Assembly: GCA_003694825.1 (NCBI GenBank)
Contig: RFJS01000321.1
Location: forward strand, 1 to 12,872
Direction of reading: 5' to 3'
From: Verrucomicrobiota bacterium
Lineage (GTDB): Bacteria; Verrucomicrobiota; Verrucomicrobiia; Opitutales; Opitutaceae
DNA: 12,872 nucleotides
The notes under the pieces are model-generated. The model searched no databases. It was not told the origin of the DNA and was given only the letters and a program-made list of their open reading frames with translations. Made by a program: the position numbers and the translations under genes. This document shows, one piece after another, positions 2,751 to 12,872 of the stretch (position 1 is its first letter; each line of letters opens with the position of its first letter).

Positions 2751-4277
2751 GTGGAAGACATCTACGCAACCCTGAAGGCGGCCAACCGGCTTCCGACTCT
2801 GCCGGCCGTGGCCATTCGTATTATCGAGCTGGCCAGCTCCGAGGCGACCTCGATCGAGGATGTCGCCGAGGCGATCCAGTGTGATCCCGCGCTGACGGCA
2901 CGGATCCTGAAGTGTCTCAGCTCGCCGCTGTTCGGGCTTGGGTTTGGCGGGAGCACGCTGGCCGAGGCGGTGGCGCGCATCGGCCTGCGCGGCACGCAGA
3001 TGATGGCCCTCTCCTTCACCCTCGTGTCGCAAAAGCATCGGGCCGCCTGTGCGAGCTTTGCCTTCGATCGTTTCTGGTCGGAATCTCTCGGCCGGGCGGT
3101 GGCGGCCCGCTGTCTCGCGCGGCACCTGCGCGGGTGGGATCCGGAAGAGGCTTTCATCACGGGGTTGCTGGCCCGCATCGGGCAGCTGGTTTTCGCCACA
3201 GGGGCGGGAACGCGCTATGAGGCCGTGCTCAGCGGTGTGGGGGAGGGACTGGCCGCCGACCTTGCGCGGCGCGAGCGAGCGGAGTTCGGCATCGATCATC
3301 TCGAGCTTGGCGAGCGGCTCCTGCGCGACTGGCAGTTGCCCGAGATCGTCTGGAAGACCATCGGGAATCTCTCCGGGGAGGCCACCGATGTCACGCGAGC
3401 TGTGCGTATCGTGCGGATCGCCGATGGCATCGCCCAGTTTCTCACCAATGTGGCCCGGCACAACGCCGATGACGTCCGGCTGCTCACGGACGAGGCGGTC
3501 GATCAACTCGAGGTGGAGGCGGGGGATTTTCGCGAACTGCTCGAGGAGGTCGGGCAGAATTGGACGATTTACGGCCAGATGCTCTCGGTGCCGACTTCGA
3601 AGGTGCCGGATCTCGCGCTGATCGAGGAGCAGGCCGAGGAGCGGCGCATGGCGCTGGAGATCGCGTCCGAGATCGAGGTAAACAACCTGCGAGCGGAAAA
3701 TGAACAGCTCGGCCAGGAGGCGCGCCGGGACCGGCTGACAGGTCTGTTCAATCGCGCCAGCTTCGACGACGCGCTTCCTCAGGCCCTGGTCGAGGCGGCC
3801 GCGACAGGGGATCCACTCACCCTGCTCATGATCGACGCGGACCACTTCAAGTCCGTCAATGACACCCACGGCCACCAGGTCGGCGACGGTGTGCTGCGGC
3901 ATCTCGCCGGGATCATCCAGGCGAACCTTCCCGAGACGGCCCGGGCCTTTCGCTACGGCGGAGAGGAGTTTGCCGTGATCGCACCGGCCTGCGGGACGGA
4001 ACCGGCCTGCGGGCTCGCCGAGACGATTCGCACTGCGGTCGAGCGCACCCCTTACGTCGAGGCGGCGCTTCGGCTCGATCTCACCGTCAGCATGGGGGTC
4101 GCCGTCACTGAAGTGGAGGGCGTGCCGCCGACGGCGGTCGGCCTCATCGCCTGGGCGGACGAGCGTCTCTACGAGGCCAAGCGGGGTGGGCGCAACGCCT
4201 GGCGCATCCGCCCGCCGGAGAAGACGCGTGTCGCGTGGTGGCGGCGGATCGGGCGAGTCTTTTCGCGCTCGAACTGA
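2751..4277 (+). CDS. HDOD domain - GGDEF diguanylate cyclase
   Basis: This 508-residue protein has an N-terminal HDOD domain (about 12-210), seen as LPTLPAVAIRIIEL, IEDVAEAIQCDPALTARILK and the later HLELGERLLRDWQLPEIVW. A charged helical linker (about 288-325) is a likely coiled-coil signalling helix, and a GGDEF domain covers about 326-485. The active-site motif is intact (GGEEF, 403-407), as is the metal-binding region IDADHFKSVNDTHGHQVGD (from 361). The protein should therefore make cyclic di-GMP from two GTP. The RxxD inhibitory site, expected just before RYGGEEF, is absent (PETARAF), so classical product inhibition is not predicted. No membrane segment is visible, so it is cytoplasmic. 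The GTG start yields a standard HDOD N-terminus. A GAGGGA at 2731-2736 could serve as an SD, but it is far from the start and lies in a small hairpin (AGGGA-AAC-TCCCT, 2732-2744). The gene is separated from its neighbours on both sides. Confidence 0.9.
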   Translation: MEDIYATLKAANRLPTLPAVAIRIIELASSEATSIEDVAEAIQCDPALTARILKCLSSPLFGLGFGGSTLAEAVARIGLRGTQMMALSFTLVSQKHRAACASFAFDRFWSESLGRAVAARCLARHLRGWDPEEAFITGLLARIGQLVFATGAGTRYEAVLSGVGEGLAADLARRERAEFGIDHLELGERLLRDWQLPEIVWKTIGNLSGEATDVTRAVRIVRIADGIAQFLTNVARHNADDVRLLTDEAVDQLEVEAGDFRELLEEVGQNWTIYGQMLSVPTSKVPDLALIEEQAEERRMALEIASEIEVNNLRAENEQLGQEARRDRLTGLFNRASFDDALPQALVEAAATGDPLTLLMIDADHFKSVNDTHGHQVGDGVLRHLAGIIQANLPETARAFRYGGEEFAVIAPACGTEPACGLAETIRTAVERTPYVEAALRLDLTVSMGVAVTEVEGVPPTAVGLIAWADERLYEAKRGGRNAWRIRPPEKTRVAWWRRIGRVFSRSN

Positions 4278-4583: not shown

Positions 4584-4690
4584 AGCAACTCGTGAGGAAC
4601 TTTTCCTCGCCCCCCGGAGCTGGCTGCGGATTGTCGGGATCGACCGCTGCTTTTCCTCCTCTTTCCAACCTCTCTCTCGCGATCCAACCT

Positions 4691-5776
4691 ATGAACAAGA
4701 CCTACCAGATCGGCAATCGCACATTCGTGCTCGATCAGGCCAAAGCCGAGGCCGCCTTCGCCGCCAAGAAAGTCATCCTCGGGCGGGAAACCATGACCTT
4801 CAACCTCCTCCCGCTCAAATACCAGTGGGCCTACGATCTCTACCGCACGATGAAGGCCAACCACTGGGAGCCCGAGGACATCCCCATGGGCAAGGACATC
4901 GAGCAGTGGAAGGATGCCGATCTGCTCACGGACGTCGAACGGTGGATCATCATGATGGGCATCGGCTACTTCTCGGCCGCCGAGGGGATCGTCGGGGACA
5001 ACATCATCCACGTCGTCCGCGAGCTCGTCACCGCGCCCGAACTCAAGCTCGTCCTCGGCCGTCACGCGCACGAGGAGAACATCCACGCCGACAGCCTCCT
5101 CTACATGATCAGCTCGCTGGGCATCAACCCCCACGAGTGCGAGGCCATGTTTGAGGACATCGAGACGATCCGCAAAAAGAACGAGTTCGTCACCCGCACC
5201 TCACACCTGTTGCGGCGCGATCTCGATCTGAACGACCCGAAGAACAAGCAGCTTTTCGGCAAGAACATCTTCGTCTTCGGCCAGTGCATGGAGGGAACGC
5301 AATTCTACGGCCTGTTCGGCATGGTGCTCTCCCTCTATCGGCAGAACAAATTTTCCGGCATCGGCCAGATGTTTCGCTACACTCTGCGCGACGAGTCCAA
5401 CCACATCGAACTCTTCCGCAACCTCTTCATGGATCTTGTCAGCGAGAACCCGGAGATCTGGACTGATGAATACAAGGAAGAACTCCGGGAAACCATGCGC
5501 GAGGCCGTCGCCCTCGAAAAGGAATTCATCCGCGACTGCCTTCCGGTCAACGCCGTCGGCTTGCGCGTGGAAGACTTTCTTCAATACATCGACTACATCG
5601 CCGACCGGCGCCTCGCCGGCTGCGGTCTCGAGCCGTTGACCGGCGGCGTGGCGAATCCTCTGCCGTGGCTTGCGGAGATGATGGACATCAAGAAGGAACA
5701 GAACTTCTTCGAAGGCCGCGTCACCGAGTATCAGAAAGCCTCCGCTCTCGAAGTCGCGGACGACGACGAACTCTGA
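4691..5776 (+). CDS. nrdB: Class I ribonucleotide reductase beta subunit, class Ic-like (Leu in place of the radical Tyr)
   Basis: This 361-residue small subunit supplies the oxidant that starts ribonucleotide reduction in NrdA. The dinuclear metal ligands are all present: E98 (FSAAEGIV), E129 and H132 (EENIH), E201 (MEGTQFY), and E235 and H238 (RDESNH). The residue four after H132, which is the radical Tyr in classes Ia/Ib, is L136. The first ligand is Glu instead of Asp. Both features match the class Ic (Chlamydia trachomatis-type, Mn/Fe cofactor) pattern. W59, Y138 and Y230 also sit at positions corresponding to the functional Trp and Tyr residues of the chlamydial enzyme. I chose the ATG at 4691 (MNKTYQIGNRTFVLD). 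The frame extends to a GTG at 4592, but that stretch reads as non-conserved leader, and 4592 follows the NrdR boxes by only 8 bp. No clear SD is visible. The gene is first in an operon with nrdA, 214 bp downstream. Confidence 0.93.
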   Translation: MNKTYQIGNRTFVLDQAKAEAAFAAKKVILGRETMTFNLLPLKYQWAYDLYRTMKANHWEPEDIPMGKDIEQWKDADLLTDVERWIIMMGIGYFSAAEGIVGDNIIHVVRELVTAPELKLVLGRHAHEENIHADSLLYMISSLGINPHECEAMFEDIETIRKKNEFVTRTSHLLRRDLDLNDPKNKQLFGKNIFVFGQCMEGTQFYGLFGMVLSLYRQNKFSGIGQMFRYTLRDESNHIELFRNLFMDLVSENPEIWTDEYKEELRETMREAVALEKEFIRDCLPVNAVGLRVEDFLQYIDYIADRRLAGCGLEPLTGGVANPLPWLAEMMDIKKEQNFFEGRVTEYQKASALEVADDDEL

Positions 5777-5892: not shown

Positions 5893-5990
5893 AAGCTCTG
5901 CCCGGCGCGGAGCCTCACCCCGACAGCACTGCGCGCTTGTTCAACCGCTTCTCCAGCCAACCAACATACCTCCTCAGCCTGCTCACAGCC

Positions 5991-8900
5991 ATGCCGACCA
6001 ACATTCAGCTCGAAGAAGATCTCACCCTCAAGCGGTTCGTCACGGTCCCGCCCGACCAGAAACCCAGCTTCAACTGGCGCGGCCTCATCCCCGACGACGA
6101 GCGCCGTCACGAGGCCATCCGCGTCGTCTGCCCGCATGGCGAGGAAGCCTTCGATCTCGGCGAAGTCGTCGACACCATCGGCCGGGGCCTCACCAACGTC
6201 CTCCTCGCCCACGAAGAGCAGGACATTTTCAATGAGCAGAACCGCAACTGGGTGGAAAAAACCGCCCGCCGTATCGCGGCCGCCCTCGAGGCGCGGCTCA
6301 CCGAGGAGACGCCCGTGCGCATCACGCTCAGCGATCTCTATGCCCTCATCGAGAGCATCCTCGTCGCCGACAAGGCCTACGAAGTCGCCAAGAGCATCCT
6401 CATCCACCGCTCCCGCAAGCTCGGCGCCACCATGGGCGAACGGTTTGTGCCGGTGCGCCTGATACGTCGCAATGGGCACATCGTCCCGTGGAACGAGGCC
6501 AAGATCGAAATCGCCGTCCGCAAGGCCTTCCTCACGCTCGAGCGCGATTCCGCTCCGGCCGTCGACATCGCCCGCGCCGTCACCGAGCGCGTCCTCCAGT
6601 CCCGCCAGGCCTTCATGCACATCGAGGAAGTCCAGGACCTCGTGCAGGAAGAGCTGATGCGCCAGGGCTATTTCAAAGTGGCCGAGCAATACATCCTCTA
6701 TCGAGCCCAGCGCGCTCAGATCCGCGCCCGCGAGCGCGTCGAGCCCGAGCCGGCCCCCGAACAGAATCAGCTCGTCGTGGTCAAGCGCTCCGGTGGCGAA
6801 AACTACTTCTGGGACGGCGTCGATCTGCGCAAGCGCATCGAATTCGCCCGCATCGGCCTCGATCTGTCGCTCTCGGATGACGAGATCGAGACCGAGCTTC
6901 GCCGCTCCATCTTCGATGAGATCTCGCAGAAGGATCTCAACAACACCATCGTGCTCAACGCCAAGACCCTCATCGAGCGCGACGCCGACTTTGCGAAGTT
7001 CGCCGGCCGCATCCAGCTCACCTACATCTACGAGGAAGTCCTCGGCTGGGACATCGTGCGGGACGGCATCGGCGCCCTGAAGGAATTTCATCGGCGCTAC
7101 TTCCGGCACTACATTGCGCGCGGCATCGAGATCAAGCGCCTCAACCCCGCGCTCGAGTCCTACGACCTCGACAAGCTCGCCGAAGCGCTCGATCCCTCCG
7201 CCGATCTCGAGTTCGACTTCCTCGGCATCCAGACCCTCTACGATCGCTACCTCATCGTCGACAAGACCATCAAGCCGGCCCGCCGCCTCGAAACGCCCCA
7301 GCTTTTCTGGATGCGTGTCGCTATGGGCCTCTACCTCGGGGAGGCGGAAAACCGCGAGGACCACGTCCTCTCCCTCTACCAGCTCTACAAAAGCCGCCGC
7401 TTCTGCAGCAGCACCCCCACGCTCTTCAACTCCGGCACGCCGCACTCCCAGCTCTCCTCCTGCTACCTCTACTGGGTCGACGACTCCATCGAGGGCATCA
7501 TGCAGCGAGGCATCGCCGAAAACGCCTACCTCGCCAAGTGGGCCGGCGGCCTCGGCGGCTCCTGGACCAGCGTCCGTGGCACCGGCGCCTACATCGCCGG
7601 CACCAACGGCGAATCCCAGGGCGTCATCCCCTTTCTCAAGCTGCACAACGACCAGCTCGTCGCCGTCAACCAGGGAGGCAAGCGCAAGGGCTCGGGCTGC
7701 GCCTACCTCGAGTCCTGGCACAACGACATCTTCGACTTCCTCGAGCTGCGCCGCAACACCGGTGACGACCGTCGACGCACCCACGACATGAATACGGCCA
7801 ACTGGATTCCGGACCTCTTCATGAAGCGCATGGAGGCCCGCCAGCACTGGACCCTCTACCGCTCGTCGGAGACGCCGGACCTGCACCACCTCTACGGCCG
7901 CAAATTCGAGGAACGCTACGTCGAATACGAAAAAATGGCCGAAGAGGGGAAGATCTGGAGCAAGCGCATCCCGGCCATCGAGCTGTGGAAAAAAATGCTC
8001 CAGATGCTCTTCGAGACCGGCCACCCGTGGATCACCTTCAAGGATCCCTGCAACATCCGCTCCCCGCAGGACCACGTCGGCGTGATCCACTCCTCCAACC
8101 TCTGCACCGAGATCACCCTCAACACCGGGCCGGACGAAACCGCAGTCTGCAATCTCGGCTCCGTCGTGCTCGACAATCACCTCAAGGAGGATGGCTCGCT
8201 CGATCTCGAGAAACTTCGCGAAACCGTGCGCATCGCCATCAGGGCCCTCGACAACGTCATCGACCTGAACTTCTACCCGACCGAAGCGGCGAAGCGCTCG
8301 AACCCCCGCCACCGGCCCATCGGCCTCGGCGTCATGGGCCTGGCCAACGCCCTTTACAAGAAGAACCTGTCCTTCGCCTCAGAGGCCGCCGTCGAATTCA
8401 ACGACGAGTTCATGGAGGCCATCGCCTACTTCGCCTACGAGGCCTCCAGCGACCTCGCGGCCGAGCGCGGCAGCTACTCCACCTTCAAGGGGTCGAAGTG
8501 GGATCGCGGTCTCCTGCCGCCGGATACGCTCAAGCTCCTCGCGGAAGAGCGGGGCGAGCCCATCGACGTGCCGGCCGGCGGGCGCATAGACTGGGATGCG
8601 CTGCGGGAAAAAATCCGCCGGCAGGGCATGCGCAACAGCAACGTGCTCGCCATCGCGCCCACCGCCACGATCTCCAACATCATGGGCACCTCGCCCTGCA
8701 TCGAACCGACCTACAAAAACCTCTACGTCAAATCCAACCTCTCCGGCGAGTTCATCGTTCTCAACCAGTATCTCGTGCGCGACCTCAAGGCCCGCGGGCT
8801 GTGGAACCGCGACATAATCGACGACCTGAAATACTTCGATGGTGAACTCACCAACATCGCGGCCGTTCCCGATGACCTGAAGGAGAAATACCGCACGGCC

Positions 8901-9248
8901 TTCGACATCGACTACAAGTGGTTCATCGAGGCCGCGGCCCGGCGTCAGAAGTGGATCGATCAGTCGCAGAGCGTGAACCTCTTCATCTCCAGGCCCGACC
9001 TCAAGACCCTCTCTCACATGTATCGGGCCGCCTGGCACAAAGGGCTCAAGACCACCTACTACTTGCGCTCACTCCAGGCCTCCAACATCGAAAAGGCGAC
9101 GGTCGCGGCGAAGAAGGAAGTCCGCGGTGTCATCGCCGGCCAGAACGGGGACAACGGCACCGCCCGGCGCACCTACACCGAAGCCGAGAAGCGGGCCTGC
9201 TCGCTCGAAGCGATGCGCAACGGTGAAGAATGCGAGGCGTGTCAGTAG
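5991..9248 (+). CDS. nrdA: Class I ribonucleoside-diphosphate reductase alpha subunit with three ATP-cones
   Basis: This 1085-residue catalytic subunit reduces ribonucleotides to deoxyribonucleotides using the oxidant of NrdB. Three N-terminal ATP-cone-like regions are seen: about 37-148 (divergent), about 153-245 (canonical, VRLIRRNGHIVPWNEAKIE) and about 258-345 (divergent, VVVKRSGGENYFWDGVDL). The catalytic barrel follows, with N703, C705 and E707 (NLCTE), the redox pair C491 (SSCYLYW) and C720 (AVCNLGS), the radical-transfer tyrosines Y1023 and Y1024 (TTYYLRS), and the C-terminal shuttle pair C1081/C1084 (CEACQ). It is much longer than E. coli NrdA (about 760 residues) because of the extra cones; the chlamydial enzyme is similarly long. 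I chose the ATG at 5991 over the TTG at 5937 because the upstream 18 codons look like leader. No SD is visible. The last 19 codons lie inside a 146-bp tandem repeat. Confidence 0.95.
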   Translation: MPTNIQLEEDLTLKRFVTVPPDQKPSFNWRGLIPDDERRHEAIRVVCPHGEEAFDLGEVVDTIGRGLTNVLLAHEEQDIFNEQNRNWVEKTARRIAAALEARLTEETPVRITLSDLYALIESILVADKAYEVAKSILIHRSRKLGATMGERFVPVRLIRRNGHIVPWNEAKIEIAVRKAFLTLERDSAPAVDIARAVTERVLQSRQAFMHIEEVQDLVQEELMRQGYFKVAEQYILYRAQRAQIRARERVEPEPAPEQNQLVVVKRSGGENYFWDGVDLRKRIEFARIGLDLSLSDDEIETELRRSIFDEISQKDLNNTIVLNAKTLIERDADFAKFAGRIQLTYIYEEVLGWDIVRDGIGALKEFHRRYFRHYIARGIEIKRLNPALESYDLDKLAEALDPSADLEFDFLGIQTLYDRYLIVDKTIKPARRLETPQLFWMRVAMGLYLGEAENREDHVLSLYQLYKSRRFCSSTPTLFNSGTPHSQLSSCYLYWVDDSIEGIMQRGIAENAYLAKWAGGLGGSWTSVRGTGAYIAGTNGESQGVIPFLKLHNDQLVAVNQGGKRKGSGCAYLESWHNDIFDFLELRRNTGDDRRRTHDMNTANWIPDLFMKRMEARQHWTLYRSSETPDLHHLYGRKFEERYVEYEKMAEEGKIWSKRIPAIELWKKMLQMLFETGHPWITFKDPCNIRSPQDHVGVIHSSNLCTEITLNTGPDETAVCNLGSVVLDNHLKEDGSLDLEKLRETVRIAIRALDNVIDLNFYPTEAAKRSNPRHRPIGLGVMGLANALYKKNLSFASEAAVEFNDEFMEAIAYFAYEASSDLAAERGSYSTFKGSKWDRGLLPPDTLKLLAEERGEPIDVPAGGRIDWDALREKIRRQGMRNSNVLAIAPTATISNIMGTSPCIEPTYKNLYVKSNLSGEFIVLNQYLVRDLKARGLWNRDIIDDLKYFDGELTNIAAVPDDLKEKYRTAFDIDYKWFIEAAARRQKWIDQSQSVNLFISRPDLKTLSHMYRAAWHKGLKTTYYLRSLQASNIEKATVAAKKEVRGVIAGQNGDNGTARRTYTEAEKRACSLEAMRNGEECEACQ

Positions 9249-9509
9249 GACGCAGCCGGGCGAAGCCTCGGGCCCGCTTCGAGGGGCACCGTTCCGAGCG
9301 AAGCGACAACCCGAGGCGCGCGAGCGCCGAGGCAAAGCGGGCCTGCTCGCTCGAAGCGATGCGCAACGGTGAAGAATGCGAGGCGTGTCAGTAGGACGCA
9401 GTCGCGTGAAGCCTCGGGCCCGCTTCGAGGGGCACCGTTCCGAGCGAAGCGACAACCCGAGGCGCGTGAGCGCCGAGGCAAAGCGGGCCTGCTCGCTCGA
9501 AGCGATGCG
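9189..9509 (+). repeat. 146-bp tandem repeat containing the 3' end of nrdA (2.2 copies)
   Basis: Copy 1 is 9189-9334, copy 2 is 9335-9480, and a third copy is cut off after 29 bp (9481-9509). The unit consists of the last 19 sense codons and stop of nrdA (60 nt) plus 86 nt of downstream DNA. Copies 1 and 2 differ at four bases by my alignment: three in the stretch just after GGACGCAG and one in a hairpin loop. The period is not a multiple of three and a stop precedes copy 2, so the second nrdA tail is not translated as part of NrdA. The unit is rich in short inverted repeats built on CGAAGCG/CGCTTCG. It could have arisen by unequal exchange between the 29-bp copies. Confidence 0.95.
9315..9328 (+). 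other. GNRA-loop hairpin in repeat copy 1
   Basis: GGCGC-GCGA-GCGCC forms a 5-bp stem with a GCGA tetraloop. The equivalent hairpin in copy 2 (9461-9474) has a GTGA loop, so the one difference in this part of the repeat keeps both the stem and a GNRA-class loop. Confidence 0.5.
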
Positions 9510-9732: not shown

Positions 9733-10212
9733 TCACGCTCTTGTTTTCCCTTTCCCCCTGGTGCGGCGTGTCTTACGGCCCGCAGGCTTTTGCGATGGTT
9801 CCGGAGTTTCGTCCGGGCCGAGGAAGGATACAGAAGGAAGCGTGAGCATGCCATGTGGACCTCGGGAAGTGATGGCACTCACCATTTCCCGGGTCGCGCC
9901 ATAGAGCATGGATGCTCCAGTGACCCGGATGAGACGCTCGGGGTCGTAGGGATACTTCTCGTGGACCGCGTAGTGCCCTTCGACCGCTATGCACCCTGTA
10001 TAAGGTGGAGGAGCGGTCTCCTTTTGGCCGCTGAGGCGAATCACCAAACGCACTCGCCACTGTCGGGGACAATCGGACAAGGCCTCTACGTGGCGTTCCA
10101 CATCGATCTGTCCCGGACCGTGGTTTTCCCCTTCGGAGGCGACAATCTGCACCTCGCGAAATACTTGAGAGAGAATCTCGAGCGGTGAGGGGCTAAGCTG
10201 CATCTTCGGCAT
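9733..10212 (-). CDS. SecB-like chaperone of a toxin-antitoxin-chaperone module
   Basis: This 159-residue protein resembles the SecB export-chaperone family. It starts MQLSPSPLEILSQVFREVQI and has a central beta-rich region containing VEGHYAV. It also has the SecB-like segment LYGATREMVSAITSRG (103-118) with the LPSVSF strand (125-130), corresponding to the PYARE..s.l..rG...l.LpPinF region of SecB. A basic tail (RKTRRTRGKGKTRA) ends the protein. It overlaps the antitoxin gene by 20 nt; if the second Met (M4, 10203) is used, by 11 nt. This position, after a toxin and antitoxin, marks it as the dedicated TAC chaperone, which in M. tuberculosis (Rv1957) binds the antitoxin and protects it from aggregation and proteolysis. 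A housekeeping SecB is less likely in this context. Confidence 0.8.
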   Translation of the reverse strand: MPKMQLSPSPLEILSQVFREVQIVASEGENHGPGQIDVERHVEALSDCPRQWRVRLVIRLSGQKETAPPPYTGCIAVEGHYAVHEKYPYDPERLIRVTGASMLYGATREMVSAITSRGPHGMLTLPSVSFLGPDETPEPSQKPAGRKTRRTRGKGKTRA

Positions 10213-10639
10213 CGCGGTCTGCGGGGCGGCGGCGGATCAACCGTGGGGAAGGTGCCTGGCGAATCGGTCGGAGATTGGTTCCCGGATCAAGCGTGATCCG
10301 TTCCTGGCTCGACGGTGCACATGGATAATGGATCCACGATACCCGATGGCCCTGTGGAACAAAGGTTTGGACAAGGTCGGCTCCGACTGCCGCCCCGGTC
10401 CGAACGAGCGTGTCGATCGTCAGATTCTCGTCGCCACTGAGCAGCTTGGTAATCCGTGACGGGCGAACGCCCATACGACGGGCGAGCTCAGAGCGACTGA
10501 TGTTCTCGCGATGCATGAAGTCGAGAAGCGCCTCGACGATCTCGAGTTTCTTGCGTTCGACCTGTGACTCGATCGTCGCGAGCGATTGGGCGAATGCTTC
10601 TGCGAGAGAGTCGCGTTCGGAAGTGATTTGGATATTCAT
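10193..10639 (-). CDS. HigA-type XRE antitoxin with a C-terminal chaperone-addiction-like extension
   Basis: This 148-residue protein has a helical N-terminus and an XRE helix-turn-helix (about 34-90), seen in ISRSELARRMGVRPSRITKLLSGDENLTI. Such antitoxins bind both the toxin and the operon operator. After the HTH comes an unusual extension of about 58 residues (91-148) with hydrophobic/aromatic residues (FVPQGHRVSWIHY, W102 and Y105) and a polar, Arg/Asp-rich end. In TAC modules a C-terminal chaperone-addiction (ChAD) segment with a key Trp makes the antitoxin dependent on the SecB-like chaperone; equating this tail with ChAD is inference. The start ATG overlaps the toxin stop (ATGA, 10636-10639) and the end overlaps the chaperone gene, so the three are translationally linked. 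Confidence 0.88.
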   Translation of the reverse strand: MNIQITSERDSLAEAFAQSLATIESQVERKKLEIVEALLDFMHRENISRSELARRMGVRPSRITKLLSGDENLTIDTLVRTGAAVGADLVQTFVPQGHRVSWIHYPCAPSSQERITLDPGTNLRPIRQAPSPRLIRRRPADRDAEDAA

Positions 10640-11100
10640 GGTCGGTCGATGAGCGTGAATGAAGCGGTTTTATCGCGCTTCGCCGCGAAATAGCGCTGCT
10701 TGATGCCTTGGGCTTTTTGAATGTCTCTCTGTTGTTGGCGCGGCGTATTCTTTTTGCCGCCGTTCGTGCAGAGGATCAGTTGTTGATCGATACCCGAGAG
10801 TGTATCGAAGAATGCATAGAGACGGATGCCATGGCGCTTGAACTCGAAGATGCCAATGGGCAGAGACTTGAAGATTTCCTGGTTGCGGCAGTCGGGGTTG
10901 TTGGCGACATGCCCGATGCGGGCGACAAGCTGCCGCCACTTGGTGCTGTCATCCTTTCGGAGCTTCTCCAGCAATTCGCGTGCGGGAGCCTTTCCATTGA
11001 TCGTTAACGTGGCGACACGGAGACTTTGGCCAACGTGCAGGGTGTGGATGATGATGTCAACGGCACCTTTCACCTTTAAGTGAAATCTTGATCGGAGCAC
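10636..11100 (-). CDS. HigB/RelE-fold (Gp49-like) toxin
   Basis: The frame gives 154 residues. The core (about 28-140) matches the Gp49-like HigB family: LRVATLTINGKAPARELLEKL, then IFEFKRHGIRLYAFFDTL (84-101), then LILCTNGGKKNTPRQQQRD (108-126) and a final helix KAQGIKQRYFAAK. Members are usually ribosome-dependent mRNA interferases that halt translation, kept in check by the antitoxin. It is the first gene of the operon, an order typical of HigBA modules. The start is uncertain: the GTG at 11100 gives a 27-residue N-terminus before the conserved core, and an in-frame GTG at 11073 gives a shorter one. Neither has a good SD, and an inverted repeat (11068-11085) overlaps the region. Base composition is visibly less GC-rich than in nrdA or the membrane protein, which suggests acquisition as a unit. 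Confidence 0.83.
   Translation of the reverse strand: MLRSRFHLKVKGAVDIIIHTLHVGQSLRVATLTINGKAPARELLEKLRKDDSTKWRQLVARIGHVANNPDCRNQEIFKSLPIGIFEFKRHGIRLYAFFDTLSGIDQQLILCTNGGKKNTPRQQQRDIQKAQGIKQRYFAAKRDKTASFTLIDRP
11068..11085 (-). promoter_or_regulatory. Candidate operator of the TAC operon
   Basis: On the plus strand TTTCAC (11068-11073) and GTGAAA (11080-11085) form a perfect 6-bp inverted repeat with a 6-bp T/A-rich spacer. XRE antitoxins autoregulate by binding such sites near the first gene. It lies inside the frame if the toxin starts at 11100, and at the very start if the GTG at 11073 is used. A second pair, TTGATC/GATCAA on the minus strand, flanks the stretch just upstream. Confidence 0.4.
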
Positions 11101-11136
11101 TCATCGTGCGTGCTTTTGGGGTGATTCAGATCAAAC

Positions 11137-11149
11137 GCTCCATTGGAGC
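11137..11149 (-). terminator. Weak hairpin between the membrane glycosyltransferase gene and the TAC operon
   Basis: GCTCC-ATT-GGAGC forms a 5-bp stem, followed on the minus strand by only three Ts (GTTTGATC). It might be a weak terminator or just a structured spacer. The 72-bp gap and common direction also allow read-through from the membrane protein gene into the toxin gene. Confidence 0.25.
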
Positions 11150-11172
11150 CGCATCAATGACGATTCCGGTTA

Positions 11173-12872
11173 TCACAGAGGCAACGACGGGCGCCTTTCC
11201 CGCACCAGCACCAGCACCTCGCCACCGTTCGTGGCGAAGCCGAGGATGTAGCCGTGTGCGTTGAGGCCGGAGAGGCGGGCGGCGGTTTCCGGCTCGAAAC
11301 GGCGCAGATCGTCGTCGACGACGATGGCGGCGGCACCTTCGGCCGCGAGCCACGCCGCCAGTGACTCCGGTGTCTCGAGATCGCGCTGGGGGATGCCGAT
11401 GCGGACAAATTCCATGTTGGCGGCCCAGACCAGGCCGGGACCCCATGCCGCGACGCGGGTCCCCGGCGGGAAGGTCTCGGCGAGGTAATCGACCGCTTTC
11501 TGCTCGGGGTCACCGAAGGGCGTCACGGGGACGCGGAAGGCGGGCCCGGCGCGCAGCGCGAGGCTTCCGGACAGGAGGATGAGTGCGCCGGCGAGCGCGG
11601 CAGCGGGCGCATGCCGCTCCCGCAGAATGTCGTGGGCGATCCATGCGATCCACAGCGTCAGGAGCAGAACGAGCGCGGCGAACACCGCGGTGCTGTTGGG
11701 CTTGAGCAGGATCGCGGCGAGGATCGCGGCGGTGGCGAGGCCTACCGTCCACACGCGGCGCTCCCGTCGGCTGTCGAGGTTGCGGGCCCAGGCGTCGACG
11801 CCGATCGCGGCGATGGGGAACCACGCGAGGAAGGGGATGAGCAGATGGTGGGGCTGAAAACACAGCAGCACGTAGAGCCCGGCATACGCGCTCCAGGCGA
11901 TGAGCAGCGCGGCGAGCGGGAGGGCGCGCCGTTGGACCAGTGCCAGCAGGCCGCGCACCGCGAAGAGCGCAAGGGCGATGCCGAGGTATTTGCCGTATCC
12001 GTCGAAGGCGTGGCCGGCGGCTGATCGGGTCAGCCGCGGGATTCGCGCGAAATAGGCGGCCGGATTGCGGGCGATGGCCCGGAAGATCGAGTCTGCGTTC
12101 TCCTCGGGAGTGCCGAAGAGACGCCGGGCCTCGATCTCGCCTTCCACGTAGGGTTGCCGGCCGCCGTAGGTGTCGGCGAAGGCCATGCCGTGCCCCTGCT
12201 CGAAGGTCGCATAGGCGCGGTGGCGTGTGCCCAGTGCCCACTCGCCCGTGACCGCGCCGTGCAGGACCACGTAGCCGCCGGTCAGTGCGAAAAATGGGAG
12301 CAGGATCGCCGGAAGGGCCTGCCGCAGGCGGCGTTCGCGCCAGGCGGCGAACGCGGCGAAGGCCGCGAAGGTGACGAACAGCACCGGGGCTTCGTTGCGG
12401 GAGAGCGCGGCGAGGCCGATGAAGGCCGACGCGCGCCAGAGCCGCTCGAATGCACCGCGGCGCATCACCGGGATCATCTCCGCCAGGGCCAGGCCGGCGA
12501 AGGCGGCAAACATGGCGTTGGTCCCGTTGTCGAGAAGCAGGACGATCGCCGGGGAGACCGCGGCCAGCGCGATGAGAATCAGCGGATGCGCTTCCTCGCG
12601 CAGGGCGCGGGCGATGCGAAATGTCGCGACCCAAAGCAGGAGAAAGAATACCCCGCGTCCGATCCAGCAGGTGTACTCAAGCCAATGGCGCGCTCCCTGG
12701 ATACACAGGTAGATGACGGAATAGACGGCGTCGACCGCGGGGTTGAGGGCGTATTCGGGCAATTGCCCGGAAGCGATCAGCCGCCCCTGATAGATGTAAA
12801 CGGCTTCATCCCACTTGCCGATGCGGCTCAGCGGCGGGATCAGCGCGTTGAAGACCATGGCGAGCTGGGCCA
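11173..12872 (-). CDS. Polytopic membrane glycosyltransferase-like protein (GT-C/GT39-like), 5' part probably beyond the window
   Basis: The frame is open to the right edge. The ATG at 12858 is the first visible start, but in-frame codons before it (AQLA) join a hydrophobic stretch (MVFNALIPPL), so the first membrane helix may begin outside the window. GKWDEAVYIYQGRLIASGQLP (from about residue 14 after that Met), with its Asp-Glu, resembles the first extracytoplasmic loop of dolichyl/polyprenyl-phosphate-dependent GT-C transferases (PMT/ArnT type). Many hydrophobic segments follow, such as GVFFLLLWVATF, LILIALAAVSPAIVLLL, LIAWSAYAGLYVLLCF and WTVGLATAAILAAILL. A soluble C-terminal domain of about 135 residues starts near GDPEQKAVDYLAETFPPGTRV. 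It probably transfers sugar from a lipid carrier at the outer face of the inner membrane. The acceptor is unknown and no glycan-pathway neighbour is visible. Confidence 0.7.
   Translation of the reverse strand, partial: AQLAMVFNALIPPLSRIGKWDEAVYIYQGRLIASGQLPEYALNPAVDAVYSVIYLCIQGARHWLEYTCWIGRGVFFLLLWVATFRIARALREEAHPLILIALAAVSPAIVLLLDNGTNAMFAAFAGLALAEMIPVMRRGAFERLWRASAFIGLAALSRNEAPVLFVTFAAFAAFAAWRERRLRQALPAILLPFFALTGGYVVLHGAVTGEWALGTRHRAYATFEQGHGMAFADTYGGRQPYVEGEIEARRLFGTPEENADSIFRAIARNPAAYFARIPRLTRSAAGHAFDGYGKYLGIALALFAVRGLLALVQRRALPLAALLIAWSAYAGLYVLLCFQPHHLLIPFLAWFPIAAIGVDAWARNLDSRRERRVWTVGLATAAILAAILLKPNSTAVFAALVLLLTLWIAWIAHDILRERHAPAAALAGALILLSGSLALRAGPAFRVPVTPFGDPEQKAVDYLAETFPPGTRVAAWGPGLVWAANMEFVRIGIPQRDLETPESLAAWLAAEGAAAIVVDDDLRRFEPETAARLSGLNAHGYILGFATNGGEVLVLVRERRPSLPL

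Follow-up and report, generated by a model that had tools for sequence, protein, structure and literature searches.

Toxin, antitoxin and SecB-like genes in the window

We analysed a stretch of 12,872 nucleotides (the window; contig RFJS01000321.1, assembly GCA_003694825.1) from a Verrucomicrobiota bacterium of the family Opitutaceae, which carries three adjacent, co-oriented genes in the order of a toxin-antitoxin-chaperone (TAC) module: a HigB-like toxin, a HigA-like antitoxin and a SecB-like chaperone (Table 1). All three open reading frames (ORFs) are intact and overlap, by 4 nt between toxin and antitoxin (10636-10639) and by 20 nt between antitoxin and chaperone. An earlier note on this DNA had described the same genes and overlaps, and our coordinates agreed with it exactly. 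The same three-gene order was found in relatives at other loci, so the arrangement in the window is not due to chance.

Table 1 Features of the TAC module, in coordinates of the window.
Feature	Position	Strand	Remarks
Toxin, HigB/Gp49-like, RelE superfamily, putative ribosome-dependent mRNA endonuclease	10636..11073	-	145 aa from probable GTG start at 11073
Antitoxin, XRE/HTH, HigA-like	10193..10639	-	148 aa; HTH_3, TIGR02607, PADLOC PDC-M64B
Antitoxin C-terminal tail, Trp102 to stop, putative chaperone-addiction region (W102-I-H-Y), ending D-A-E-D-A-A	10193..10336	-	by comparison with ChAD of HigA1 (PMC5105189)
GCA GCT TAG, terminal Ala-Ala-stop of the antitoxin, putative ClpX C-terminal degron	10193..10201	-	by analogy with other TAC systems (PMC11618068, PMC8165232)
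20-nt overlap of last antitoxin codons and first chaperone codons (ATGCCGAAGATGCAGCTTAG) in two frames	10193..10212	-	
SecB-like chaperone, TAC type	9733..10212	-	159 aa; SecB core about 1-130; basic tail 143-159, predicted local distance difference test (pLDDT) under 50

A search of 5.8 billion proteins with the chaperone returned 52 matches, including its own record. The SecB profile PF02556 was matched at E 0.01 or better by 34 of the 52 aligned sequences (the window protein plus 51 matches), and a profile made from the family found SecB of H. influenzae (1fx3, E = 2.1e-5) and of E. coli (E = 0.03). AlphaFold2 predicts a fold with four long strands and one helix (mean pLDDT 81). The model's first Foldseek match was 5mtw, the TAC chaperone Rv1957 with a ChAD peptide (E = 2.6e-6, 20% identity), followed by SecB of E. 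coli and H. influenzae (1qyn, 1fx3), the top matches having a probability of 1.00. The family, its profile and the predicted structure all point to a SecB fold, which upholds the SecB-like assignment made earlier, and an identity of about 20% to Rv1957, the best PDB match, fits the claim that the chaperone is distant from mycobacterial ones. A PDB sequence search with the chaperone alone gave unrelated weak matches only.

The toxin ORF spans 10636-11100 (minus strand) in full, and the GTG at 11073 is probably its true start, because relatives align from that codon. Alignment mapping placed E77, K79, R84 and K108 against the proposed HigB catalytic residues. A HigB/RelE fold with conserved catalytic residues was found for the toxin, which had been called HigB-like. 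Among the aligned toxin family members, 15 of 18 matched PF05973 (HigB/Gp49) at E 0.1 or better. At 14% identity to HigB1 of M. tuberculosis, the toxin is as distant from the mycobacterial protein as had been supposed. It had no match in PADLOC, and PDB sequence searches with the toxin alone, or with a first profile of six toxin sequences, gave unrelated weak matches only.

The antitoxin matched HTH_3 in Pfam (E = 2.3e-6), PDC-M64B in PADLOC (9e-11) and TIGR02607 (E = 1.1e-5, under that model's cut-off). Behind this HTH domain, in line with the HigA-like assignment, is a C-terminal tail in which a W-x-x-aromatic motif resembles the ChAD of M. tuberculosis (PMC5105189, PMC6377645), and the protein ends in -DAEDAA, which by its sequence is a candidate C-terminal ClpX-type degron.

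The Ala-Ala end and the coding overlap

Chaperone-linked antitoxins were collected from 55 distinct SecB frames. Nine frames were dropped, namely fragments in L011 and L022, frames in L032 and L033 that are cut by the locus ends and repeat other rows, L038 (at a contig end), L042 (no antitoxin frame), L002 (a fusion remnant), and L072 and L074 (short chaperone frames). We chose the antitoxin of each locus manually, taking the frame that ends where the chaperone begins, and a scripted rule fixed the chaperone starts. Of the resulting 46 antitoxins, 25 end in -AA and 36 in Ala, compared with 1 and 10 respectively of 143 other ORFs of at least 150 aa from the window and the fetched loci.

These ends could be a by-product of the chaperone's N-terminal codons and no degron at all. 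Consistent with this, the end is commoner at overlaps of at least 11 nt (18/28 in -AA, 26/28 in Ala) than at overlaps under 11 nt (7/18 and 10/18), and in all 27 pairs tested from the longer class (27 of 28 loci, without L026, which nearly duplicates L023) the stop codon of the antitoxin has one and the same frame relative to the chaperone gene, and the antitoxin's two final codons overlap chaperone codons, often those for Gln-Leu or Pro-Leu. Both of these antitoxin codons begin with the wobble (third) base of a chaperone codon in 27/27 pairs, and a G at that position makes the antitoxin codon Ala. We found G in the final codon in 25/27 pairs against 12.0 expected from pooled codon usage for the same amino acids (reached in 0 of 200,000 simulations), and in the penultimate codon in 19/27 against 10.6 (P = 5.5e-5; 15/23 against 6.6 without Met codons), these P values being too small because the sequences are related. 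G is thus favoured at the shared wobble bases beyond codon usage, a bias which speaks for selection on the Ala-Ala end in its own right. Against the by-product account there are also seven -AA antitoxins whose overlap is short or absent (L045, L005, L068, L030, L073, L076 and L027), and we consider this account unlikely.

The tail and its end were confined to one size class of antitoxin. Among 72 clusters of antitoxin relatives (P0059-P0130; P0058, a near twin of the window antitoxin, was excluded), the -AA end was found in 48 of the 49 clusters of 140-150 aa and in none of the 23 of other lengths, the length classes having been set after inspecting the relatives. In 14 of the 49 tailed clusters, all of the -AA kind, the longest contig is equal in size to the contig of a chaperone match, compared with 0 of 23 untailed clusters. 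This is an indirect sign that suggests linkage of antitoxin and chaperone, and the absence of a chaperone beside most untailed forms is likewise suggested; it was seen directly in DNA only at L053, a 3.4-kb locus with an untailed antitoxin and neither toxin nor chaperone, whose genome (G641) is absent from the set of 20 with a chaperone match. On one side of the lone antitoxin of L053 (1495-1929) is an ORF which by eye we take to resemble a type I restriction subunit, and on the other are two more genes that look like a toxin-antitoxin pair, also named by eye. The C-terminus of one SecB-like protein (P0041) resembles the end of that restriction-subunit-like ORF, and a 137-aa antitoxin (P0124) has an end resembling the Lys-rich tail of the chaperone P0029, as if a chaperone had been deleted.

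W102 of the tail is near-invariant across the whole antitoxin family. We dropped it as a mark of the chaperone-addicted form, since untailed forms carry it too, and it cannot be claimed as a chaperone-binding residue.

TAC antitoxins ending in a ClpXP signal have been published (CmdA, PMC11618068; HigA1, PMC8165232), and our literature search found no report of an antitoxin degron and a chaperone encoded together in this way. We offer a tentative proposal, possible but on balance doubtful: in this phylum the antitoxin degron and the first chaperone codons may form one two-frame stretch of DNA selected in both frames, which would tie the protease tag to the gene for its masking chaperone. A mutation cutting off the chaperone would then tend to remove the tag as well, so that a cell losing the chaperone would be left with a stable, untailed antitoxin and would not kill itself, and the short antitoxins could be products of such escape.

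Distribution, toxin exchange and genomic neighbourhood

Most named records with chaperone relatives belong to Verrucomicrobiota (Opitutales, Coraliomargarita, Puniceicoccaceae, Akkermansiaceae and others), and one of 12 loci is from a metagenome-assembled genome labelled Spirochaetaceae. Occurrence is patchy, in 23/387 genomes of the phylum and 20/372 of the order. Among chaperones with a measured identity to that of the window, the closest in other genomes of the whole-genome set (47-50%; G093, G162, G533 and G474) belong to other families or to a different class, whereas five from the same family (G003, G016, G689, G691 and G709) have 33-38% identity, which suggests horizontal transfer. A search of 50,697 phage records gave no match to the chaperone, and 2 of 72,556 plasmid records matched it weakly, the accompanying MqsA ending in -LALS in one and -LEAA in the other. 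A HigB-HTH-SecB trio was also seen on an IMG/VR contig classed as viral (L046).

Of the 46 loci carrying both a chaperone and an antitoxin frame, 21 have a toxin frame matching our HigB profile. This count is partly by construction, because 14 of the 18 sequences in the profile are toxins of these loci or identical to them. Pfam named four of the other 25: HicA-HicB at L031, MqsA-like antitoxins at L045 (below the MqsA cut-off) and L021, and a sub-threshold DUF4258 toxin at L027. Such exchange of toxin-antitoxin families around SecB has already been published (PMC5105189).

The SecB-like gene could instead encode an export chaperone that merely lies behind an ordinary HigBA pair whose antitoxin works without it. 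Overexpressed chaperones of known TAC systems can take the place of E. coli SecB (PMC5105189), and no solitary SecB was seen in the window genome (3.2 Mb in 601 contigs), in which the family profile found the window gene only. A PF02556 scan, whose control detected E. coli SecB and which left the window gene itself undetected, matched 3 of 57 genomes, at sites already found with the window chaperone, and likewise gave no solitary SecB in the window genome. The fixed register of the coding overlap, the restriction of the tail and -AA end to one antitoxin length class, the repeated pairing of the chaperone family with HigB, HicAB and MqsA-like modules and a patchiness unlike that of a housekeeping export gene all speak against an export role, which we judge very unlikely.

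Decay or inactivity of the window's copy is, in our judgement, highly improbable: remnants do occur elsewhere (an antitoxin-chaperone fusion frame at L002, short chaperone frames at L072 and L074 and a toxin split into two frames at L035), but in the window all three overlapping ORFs are intact and the toxin retains E77, K79, R84 and K108. At L002 (G039) the antitoxin and chaperone remnants are merged in one frame, as after a deletion, and a ribonucleotide reductase gene lies about 11 kb off on the same contig.

Past the chaperone end in the window is an ORF (5937-9248) which we take to be the large chain of ribonucleotide reductase, and the small chain (4592-5776) was identified by a PF00268 match in the Pfam scan. 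The 3' end of the large-chain ORF, encoding ACSLEAMRNGEECEACQ, is tandemly repeated at 9189-9509, shortly before the TAC operon (about 2.2 copies with a period of 146 bp, 97%). Past the toxin end, at the edge of the contig, lies a gene for a membrane protein that matches PMT_2 below the threshold, and a two-domain HDOD and GGDEF protein is found at 2751-4277. Promoter and terminator scans yielded no more than shuffled sequence, and the sole palindrome at 11020-11200 falls within the toxin gene.

Of 39 genomes with a chaperone, 8 have an N6_Mtase gene (PF02384) no more than 7 kb away from it (G162, G089, G533, G647, G249, G519, G451, which has a chaperone fragment only, and G401), compared with 0.41 expected at random placement. 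G007 and G033, with weak matches, were excluded from this restriction-modification count. Because the 7-kb limit was chosen after viewing the distances and accessory genes cluster in general, the count shows defence-island company and not function. No N6_Mtase match was found on the window's contig. On a plasmid (L092, NZ_CP020372.1), an MqsA-SecB pair lies directly upstream of the DISARM gene drmA.

Proposed function and relation to known TAC systems

Taken with the HigB-fold toxin, the tailed HTH antitoxin and the SecB-fold chaperone, we consider that the trio is very probably a chaperone-addicted type II toxin-antitoxin (TAC) module, as the earlier note had read it. By analogy with known systems, we infer that the toxin would cut mRNA on the ribosome and that the antitoxin would bind it and repress the operon. 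The tail would make the antitoxin unstable through an ssrA-like Ala-Ala end recognised by ClpXP, and the chaperone would bind the tail, perhaps around W102-I-H-Y, permit the antitoxin to fold and mask the degron, thereby controlling neutralisation of the toxin. A client such as a newly made phage protein could then divert the chaperone, whereupon the antitoxin would be degraded and the toxin would stop translation.

A number of points weigh against this reading. In single-sequence scans the window chaperone had no match in Pfam, NCBIfam, PADLOC or PHROGs, and the toxin reached 12.9 of the 23.9 bits needed for PF05973 and was unlisted at E 0.1; the profile comparisons suggested in the earlier note gave matches for the antitoxin (HTH_3) and for relatives of the other two proteins, and none within the limits used for the window's own toxin and chaperone. 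Ten of the 46 chaperone-linked antitoxins have no Ala end, Ala ends are fewer at short overlaps, and the codon counts come from related sequences. At 11 loci with Gp49-HTH pairs lacking SecB, 1 of 7 antitoxins ends in -AA and 3 in -A, a small set and not a clean control. Most short, untailed antitoxin relatives carry W102, which may have a role for the antitoxin itself. The window genome is 80.6% complete and might have a solitary SecB in the part not recovered, and the case for TAC function as a whole draws on sequence and predicted structure.

Among known systems, M. tuberculosis HigB1-HigA1-Rv1957 comes from a different phylum and, as given above, has low identity to the window's toxin and chaperone. 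The HigBA, MqsRA and HicAB TAC systems of G. lovleyi, V. cholerae and M. methanica have SecB-like chaperones, with chaperone dependence shown in E. coli (PMC5105189). They are likened to the window module, known from its DNA, by description, through a similar exchange of toxin families around its chaperone family. CmdTAC (PD-T4-9) of E. coli has a SecB-like CmdC and a CmdA which ends in LAA and is degraded through ClpP (PMC11618068); its toxin is an mRNA ADP-ribosyltransferase, whereas that of the window has a HigB fold, and PD-T4-9_C of PADLOC was matched by 4 of 52 chaperone family members (E 0.01 or better) and not by the window chaperone. HigBAC of E. coli C496, which has the same component types (HigB, HigA and the SecB-like HigC) and is likened by description only, is activated when a phage tail protein disrupts HigA-HigC (PMC11980606). 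Our literature search, which covered few subscription journals, found no characterised TAC system from Verrucomicrobiota, as the earlier note had supposed for this kind of bacterium, and we regard the window module as a new, distant example of a type of system already described from M. tuberculosis and E. coli.

Neighbouring restriction-modification genes are consistent with a part in phage defence, as reported for E. coli TAC systems (PMC11618068, PMC11980606). The module extends HigB-type TACs to Verrucomicrobiota, and its tailed and untailed antitoxin relatives make chaperone addiction testable by comparison. If the dual-frame degron is true, it would provide a simple genomic marker for addicted antitoxins.
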